From contig CAMCUD010000002.1 of assembly GCA_945878865.1 (NCBI GenBank), positions 248,001 through 312,000 of the forward strand: a DNA stretch of 64,000 nucleotides, read 5' to 3'. Each line of letters opens with the position of its first letter. Within the stretch, counting starts at the first letter, position 1. This DNA is from Bifidobacterium breve (GTDB taxonomy: Bacteria > Actinomycetota > Thermoleophilia > Solirubrobacterales > Solirubrobacteraceae). The translations under genes and the position numbers were made by a program. Under the pieces are notes generated by a model. That model had not been told where the DNA came from and did not search any database. It saw only the letters and a list, made by a program, of their open reading frames with translations. Shown here one piece after another: positions 56,276 to 57,935 of this stretch.

Positions 56276-56647
56276 ATGGCCGATAAGAAGACCGTCTTTG
56301 TTGCGTTCGCTATCGAGGACGAGCGACAGCGCGACTTCCTCAAGGGCCAATCGCTTAGCCCCCGCGCCCCCTACGAGTTCATTGACATGTCTGTCAAGCA
56401 GGCGTACGACGAGGCGTGGAAGGACAAGGTGCGCACACGCATCCGGCGATCGGACGGAGTGCTTGTCCTGGTCAGTGCGAACTCCCTCACGTCCAGTGGT
56501 CAGAAGTGGGAGATCCAGTGTGCGAAGGACGAGGGTAAGGCGATCCGGGGAATCTGGGCGTACAAGGATGATCGGACGACTCTCGCGGGAGTCACGACGC
56601 TCACTTGGAGCGACGCCAACATCAGCGCGTTCATCGACTCTCTCTAG
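56276..56647 (+). CDS. TIR-like (ThsB/DUF1863-type) protein
   Basis: A 123-residue single-domain protein with the TIR-like fold of the MTH538/ThsB family. It starts [19 protein letters not shown] (first strand and helix), followed by [53 protein letters not shown]. The Glu in KWEIQCA (Glu79) is at the position of the NAD-processing glutamate in TIR and ThsB proteins. In Thoeris defence such proteins sense phage and make a cyclic ADP-ribose-type signal from NAD. Base composition and codon use differ from the flanking metabolic genes, suggesting transfer. The caspase-like gene starts 2 nt after its stop. Confidence 0.82.
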
Positions 56648-56649
56648 CC

Positions 56650-57642
56650 GTGCGCAAGGCACTGATCGTCGGCATCGACCACTACGAGCATCTCAGCTGC
56701 CTCAGCGGATGCGTGAATGACGCGCACTCCGTTCGGAGCGTCCTCGAAAGGCACGCGGACGGAACGCTGAACTTTGCCGGACCTCAATTGCTGACGGGTA
56801 CGAGCGGTGCTCAGCAGGTTCTGAAGCGCGACATGAAGGAAGCAGCGCGGGAGCTTTTCGCGGATGACTCTGAGATCGCGCTCTTTTACTTCGCCGGACA
56901 CGGCTACCTGGAAGACACAGGCGGATTTCTGTGTGCGAGTGACTCCGAGGCGGGCGATGATGGCTTGTCGCTACAGGAGTTGATGACCCTTGCACACGGG
57001 TCGAAGGCGCAGAACAAGATGATCGTGCTGGACAGCTGCCACAGTGGCGTAGCAGGCAATGACCCGATAGCGCCAGGACTGGCGGAGTTGTCTGACGGGC
57101 TAACGGTGTTGACCGCCTCGTCGCCTCATCAGTACGCGCTCGAGGTTCCTGGCGGCGGGGCGGGCGTCTTCACGAGTCTGTTCGTCGACGCGCTCAGTGG
57201 TGCGGCGGCGAACCTCGTGGGAGATATCACCCCGGGGAGCGTGTACGCCCACATTGATCAGTCGCTCGGCCCGTGGGCGCAGCGTCCGGTCTTCAAGACG
57301 AACGTGCGGACGTTCGTGTCCCTGCGCGAAGCGGAGTCTCCCATCGCGCTAAACGACCTACAGGCGATCACAACGCACTTTCCGACTGCGGACTTTCAAC
57401 TGCCATTGGATCCGTCGTACGAGCCCGAGCGGTCCGCCGACCAGGGTGAAGGCTCGGGGATCCCGCTGCCTGATCCTGAGCACACTGACACCTTTCGGGT
57501 ACTCCAGAGCTACGCCAAGGTGAACCTCGTGAGGCCGGTCGATGCGCCGCACATGTGGCACGCAGCGATGGGTAGCAAGTCCTGCGAGTTGACTGTGCTC
57601 GGCCAGCACTACTGGAACCTTGTCAACCAGGGGCTGATTTGA
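56650..57642 (+). CDS. Caspase-like (C14) protease, probable defence effector
   Basis: A 330-residue protein. Residues 1 to about 225 form a caspase-type fold: [14 protein letters not shown], then [13 protein letters not shown] with catalytic His84 and [14 protein letters not shown] with catalytic Cys130, and [14 protein letters not shown] linker rich in Pro/Glu/Asp leads to a C-terminal about 45-residue domain ([30 protein letters not shown] and following) that looks like a small helical or winged-helix module and may receive the activating signal. GTG 56650, 2 nt after the TIR stop, is chosen because it begins the fold directly. As in TIR-caspase immunity, a signal made by the TIR protein could activate proteolysis and stop growth. 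Confidence 0.85.
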
Positions 57643-57644
57643 TC

Positions 57645-57935
57645 ATGGCTAACCCGGACCGAGCAGCGGCACTACTCGGGAGCGAAGACCTCATCGAGGG
57701 ACTCGCTGCCATCGAACACGAGCGTTGGAGTCACTGGCAGCGATACCTCCACGCGCAGTGCACGCGGGCCCCGGACGGATCCCTCACGATCCCAGCCGAG
57801 CTCGTAGCGAAATGGTCAGCCCAATCGGCTACTCCGTACGTCGAGCTGTCAGAACAAGAGAAGGAAAGCGATCGGGAACAGGTTCGCCGTTATCTCCCAA
57901 AGATCGCTCAGTGTGTACGGGACTACGTCCCGTAG
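57645..57935 (+). CDS. RyR-domain-like small protein
   Basis: A 96-residue protein, mostly helical. The pattern LAAIEHERWSHWQRYLHAQC, ELVAKWSAQSATPYVELSEQEKESDREQVRRYLPKI resembles the prokaryotic RyR (ryanodine receptor repeat) domain: paired Trp/His/Glu-rich helices and the TPYxxLSExEKxSDR signature. RyR domains recur in nucleotide-signal conflict systems, where a ligand-sensing role has been proposed. The ATG at 57645 lies 2 nt after the caspase stop, making it the third gene of the operon. Composition is as atypical as in the two genes before it. Confidence 0.7.
   Translation: MANPDRAAALLGSEDLIEGLAAIEHERWSHWQRYLHAQCTRAPDGSLTIPAELVAKWSAQSATPYVELSEQEKESDREQVRRYLPKIAQCVRDYVP

Follow-up and report, generated by a model that had tools for sequence, protein, structure and literature searches.

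The locus raises the question of what a small RyR-like protein does in an operon that also encodes a TIR protein and a caspase. In the window (the whole 64,000-nucleotide stretch of DNA that was analysed) the three genes follow one another on the + strand. The leading gene (56276-56647) encodes a ThsB-type TIR protein of 123 aa that matches ThsB_TIR (PF08937) at 32 bits, against a cut-off of 21.2. The caspase gene (56650-57642) has a GTG start at 56650, 2 nt beyond the TIR stop; its product, a caspase-family protease with a conserved C-terminal domain, matches Peptidase_C14 (1.2e-16; 61.6 bits, cut-off 21.4) and, over its full length, phrog_18397 (1.3e-77). The catalytic His and Cys of the caspase and the Glu of the KWE motif of the TIR protein, its probable catalytic Glu, are invariant across 62 operons. 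Another 2 nt separate the caspase stop (57640-57642) from the RyR-like ORF, which runs from an ATG at 57645 to a TAG ending at 57935 (96 codons, + strand). An earlier note on this DNA had described a stand-alone 96-residue gene directly after the caspase, and the ORF and its spacing bear that description out.

The GC contents of the three genes (TIR 0.60, caspase 0.62, RyR-like 0.61) set them off from their flanking genes (0.70-0.73). A block of about 61% GC, from 56276 to 57935 on the + strand, thus sits inside DNA of about 71% GC, with third-position GC likewise lower in the block; since the block stops close to where the RyR-like gene does, the three genes have the look of a cassette that was imported as a unit. 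The genome holds the RyR-like gene in a single copy. Its homologues, lying after caspases, are conserved in Actinomycetota, Pseudomonadota and Acidobacteriota, and dN/dS for near pairs having synonymous changes is 0.04-0.14, which signifies purifying selection; conservation and dN/dS together rule out a chance ORF. Routine annotation misses the gene, because neither PADLOC nor NCBIfam holds a model for it, its Pfam score falls below the cut-off, and members of its family are mostly annotated as 'hypothetical protein'.

How closely is the protein related to the RyR domain? Searched alone against Pfam, the window's 96-aa protein (P0001) has PF02026 as its sole match, with an E-value of 0.0099 and a score of 16.5 bits, under the curated cut-off of 27.4. 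PF02026 is matched individually by 46 of the 54 family members (best, 3.8e-5). When a family profile was compared with all PDB sequences, the 13 matches below E 0.01 were all ryanodine receptors, the best a RyR1 chimera (1.9e-10), and a single-domain Bacteroides protein was reached at 4.3e-5. When hhalign compared profile with profile, the operon family and ordinary bacterial RyR domains matched over the whole domain at E 2.3e-7 with a probability of 93.5%; hhalign against single RyR sequences gave no significant match. By sequence, then, the operon protein is related to the RyR domain (PF02026), though divergent, the homology being perceptible at the level of profiles.

The predicted fold tells a different story. 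An AF2 model, computed for the monomer from rows without the plasmid-derived ones, is confident (pLDDT 95.7); neither Foldseek (run on PDB and BFVD) nor VIA-align returned a RyR structure for it, whereas a control, the model of a bacterial PF02026 domain, matches RyR structures by Foldseek at 7e-9. The order of a long helix, a hairpin, a PYxxL-type turn and a helix is common to the operon and control models, and the operon family differs from the control in an additional helix at 51-62 and a broken last helix. The putative ryanodine receptor of Bacteroides thetaiotaomicron (PDB 3nrt, 6uag) shows the same discrepancy, being matched by the family profile at 4.3e-5 to 4.5e-5 but not by Foldseek with the predicted fold. 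RyR homology is therefore claimed from sequence and not as identity of fold, and the geometry of the pocket is putative. The RyR-like identity proposed in the earlier note holds for the family in profile and profile-profile searches; the note had named a sensitive profile search as the check that might speak against it, and such searches find RyR. P0001 on its own stays below the Pfam cut-off, and the predicted fold of the monomer has no RyR match. (In the window's phylum, PF02026 matches, at L134-L154, lie mostly inside long open frames of 450-920 aa; a TIR-like ORF adjoins the RyR domain in L133, L148 and L149.)

The company that the gene keeps is much more uniform. A caspase is also present on 21 of the 22 plasmid records that bear the RyR-like gene (one of these caspases is a fragment), where independence would predict co-occurrence on 0.017 plasmids; the plasmids are related to each other, so that a P-value for this co-occurrence comes out too small. 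In genomes, a caspase is nearby in 77 of the 78 readable loci among the best 80. In those 80, the most query-like of 100 confirmed in a one-per-species genome collection (remoter members could differ), the RyR-like gene lies directly after the caspase on the same strand in 74; in the remainder there is a caspase nearby in another arrangement (3), a contig end (2) or the gene by itself (1). The median gap between caspase and RyR-like genes across operons is 2 nt. Four copies turned up when 396 genomes of the window's phylum were searched with a profile: two in operons (the window's included), one with a caspase remnant and one in a prophage-like setting. That the gene belongs to the TIR-caspase module, as the earlier note surmised, is strongly supported by this linkage on plasmids and in genomes, and the note's own counter-case, a gene usually found far from TIR-caspase genes, is ruled out by it: the gene is usually adjacent. 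It is a well-supported conclusion that the RyR-like gene is a conserved third component of many TIR-caspase operons. Distances among RyR-like proteins and among caspases are correlated (Mantel r 0.41); the caspase-TIR correlation exceeds that of the RyR-like protein with either. At four loci (L005, L080, L101 and L157) the RyR-like gene is intact and the caspase is reduced to its C-terminal part; having been found through RyR, they do not discriminate between the readings weighed below.

The converse, that is, how often TIR-caspase loci carry the gene, is a count that the earlier note had suggested. Among 42 plasmid caspases that span 80% or more of the query, and that were found independently of RyR, 20 have the RyR-like gene and 22 do not; for plasmid caspases of at least 60% identity the proportion is 10 of 11. 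The caspase occurs in six of the 396 genomes of the window's phylum, twice with the RyR-like gene, three times with a SLOG-like gene and once with neither. On a caspase tree (made by a quick method, and with RyR-positive rows over-represented by loci found through RyR) presence of the gene changes six times; it is fixed within one clade of 51 rows, and one lineage without it is nested among carriers. The RyR-like gene is, then, frequent but dispensable. Since the TIR-caspase pair so often occurs without it, the role of an obligatory receptor is an unlikely one for it, and it is better regarded as an accessory.

In RyR-lacking operons a SLOG-like gene follows the caspase at L124, L125, L126, L128, L130, L131 and in the second operon of L071 (8301-8867), and lies 5' of the TIR gene in L127 (2545-3105). 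One SLOG-like member matches YpsA (PF06908) at 0.0023, under the cut-off. The Rhodococcus erythropolis locus L071 (3629-8867) holds both arrangements, a RyR-type and a SLOG-type TIR-caspase operon about 2 kb apart, and on the quick tree the caspase of its SLOG-type operon is sister to that of L053, which has the RyR-like gene. SLOG domains of the YpsA-like clade have been implicated in cADPR sensing (PMC9503650). Two unrelated families, each linked to ADPR ligands, thus alternate in this place, which supports a role in ligand handling for whatever occupies it. A calcineurin-like metallophosphoesterase gene was also seen, after the RyR-like gene in L010 (4276-5652) and L013 (4258-5637) and after the caspase in L007 (6484-7857); some operons of the metallophosphoesterase type also bear a second TIR gene.

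A TIR protein and a caspase-like protease working through an N7-cADPR signal constitute type IV Thoeris, as the work of Rousset et al. (2025) is cited in PMC12847820. As far as that citation describes the system, the window's locus resembles it in having a ThsB-type TIR gene followed directly by a caspase-family protease gene in one operon, and differs in adding the third, RyR-like gene. The window's operon is probably a type IV Thoeris variant whose third gene is conserved and had not been named before. No description of that gene was found in the literature surveyed, which excluded the primary type IV Thoeris report: RyR is unmentioned in PMC9503650 and PMC7159879, and ryanodine receptors appear in PMC8195603 in the reference list only. 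The earlier note knew of no described role for a RyR protein here. For the bacterial operon gene this agrees with the literature surveyed, but RyR-domain proteins that act on Thoeris have been described: according to a 2026 preprint, 2'/3'cADPR is hydrolysed or sponged by RyR-domain proteins of phages (RyDEP), which defeat Thoeris (PMC13232231).

RyDEP is a homodimer with H75 and D117 as its catalytic pair; W78 stacks on adenine, and the phosphates are coordinated by H100 (PMC13232231). Three residues of the window's protein align with these: H25 (codon 57717-57719, + strand) with H75, W28 (57726-57728, +) with W78 and D76 (57870-57872, +) with D117, the match having been made by motif spacing and by alignment to the RyR profile, not against the RyDEP sequence itself. 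All 43 operon members and all 11 phage members keep H25, W28 and D76 unchanged. At the position aligned with H100 there is no His (I49, or A59/Q60), and H100 is also absent from most ordinary bacterial RyR domains in the alignment. The operon protein thus shares with RyDEP and its sponge homologues a relationship to the RyR domain and the ADPR-contacting His/Asp and Trp; it differs from phage RyDEP in being bacterial, encoded within the defence's own operon and divergent, with an additional predicted helix and without an equivalent of H100. Phage homologues that are highly conserved in sequence bind the signal and do not cleave it (PMC13232231), so the residues that have been kept predict ligand handling better than they predict catalysis.

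What might a ligand-handling accessory do? The reading that we prefer, at somewhat short of an even chance, is by analogy: the RyR-like protein may be a brake that the host itself encodes and that works by binding or cleaving the product of the TIR protein. The TIR protein would make a signal of the cyclic ADP-ribose kind (for type IV Thoeris, N7-cADPR has been reported), and this would switch the caspase on; the RyR-like protein would bind the same signal and then sequester or hydrolyse it, setting a threshold for the protease and turning it off, much as ring nucleases do for CRISPR. Between the extra sensor and the brake that the earlier note had considered, two points incline towards a brake: TIR-caspase pairs occur without the gene, and the characterised phage relatives remove or sequester the signal. 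The linkage of the gene to TIR-caspase pairs, the invariant H25, W28 and D76, the SLOG-like gene in the same place and the stand-alone phage relatives also speak for it. Against a brake stand the failure of the predicted fold to match RyR structures where the control does, the lack of a His aligned with H100, and the fact that the RyDEP evidence concerns 2'/3'cADPR, while N7-cADPR has a different linkage.

The same facts can be read in other ways. The RyR-like protein might instead assist activation, delivering the TIR product to the C-terminal domain of the caspase or docking there, and thereby sharpening or enabling the response. Its close position after the caspase, the correlated distances of the two proteins and the capacity of RyR domains to bind adenine-containing ligands (PMC13232231) are what such a co-sensor would lead one to expect; but common RyR-lacking pairs, one lineage of them nested among carriers, mean that it could not be obligatory, and caspase and TIR distances correlate better with each other than either does with RyR. 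We regard a co-sensor as improbable. An enzyme that processes the signal would make from the TIR product a different ADPR derivative, either the real ligand of the effector or a step in recycling, and might do so together with the metallophosphoesterase encoded after it in L010 and L013. Such an enzyme would explain why a catalytic-type His/Asp pair is invariant in 43 of 43 operon members, which is beyond what a pure sponge needs. Here too the many systems that do without the gene are an objection, and the conserved phage homologues that bind without cleaving make these residues no proof of catalysis, so that processing seems quite improbable.

No more can be said for a passenger gene that protects plasmids and phages from the recipient's Thoeris and owes its place in the operon to travel in a cassette, not to regulation of the caspase. 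Phage relatives do stand alone, many operons are on conjugative plasmids, and RyR-like genes survive intact beside the truncated caspases noted above, at loci found, however, through RyR. But a place in the operon that is constant over three phyla, at 2-nt spacing, is not what a passenger would show, most copies are on chromosomal or whole-genome contigs, and we think the idea very unlikely. Least credible of these alternatives is an unrelated small helical protein that has converged on two short motifs and acts through contacts with the caspase. The failure of a confident model to find RyR structures that the control finds, and the sub-threshold Pfam score of P0001, speak for it; a profile-profile match that spans the whole domain, a PDB search whose significant matches are RyR without exception, and the independent matches of most family members to PF02026 speak against it.

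To return to the proposed brake, its family also has members in phages. Of 17 such members on viral contigs, 16 have neither a TIR nor a caspase gene in the surrounding DNA that was read; several adjoin terminase, tail-sheath or primase genes, and Microcystis phage LMM01 carries one. Phages would carry such relatives as a means of silencing the defence, in the way that AcrIII-1 stands to Crn2: one family of ring nucleases serves in defence loci as a host brake (Crn2) and in viruses as an anti-defence (AcrIII-1; PMC7293037). The likeness to the CRISPR ring nucleases is one of how things work, a family found in both defence locus and viruses and acting on the defence signal; in family and signal the two are unrelated, and the host function of the RyR-like protein is inferred. 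The fuller proposition, that the operon contains a gene dedicated to switching off a cyclic ADP-ribose immune signal, drawn from a family that phages also use and with SLOG as an unrelated alternative, we consider unlikely as a whole. If true, it would be the Thoeris counterpart of the CRISPR ring nucleases. According to the RyDEP preprint, no mechanism for degrading the stable 2'/3'cADPR was known before phage proteins were reported to do so (PMC13232231); a host relative fixed in many TIR-caspase operons makes the question of how bacteria shut off the signal themselves a testable one. The family would also suggest that phages and bacterial defence operons have traded RyR proteins; these are too short for their tree to give the direction of transfer.

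Two loci at this border deserve mention. L020 (MT835687, 'Bacteriophage sp.') has a TIR-caspase-RyR operon near an ORF that resembles, by eye, an ArdC-type antirestriction protein; with such an ORF nearby, MT835687 may be a plasmid scaffold, and a phage origin of the cassette was not adopted on its account. In L158 (1504-3119), in prophage-like surroundings, a RyR-like relative lies beside an ORF resembling a GH25-type lysin, with a TAG within the match.
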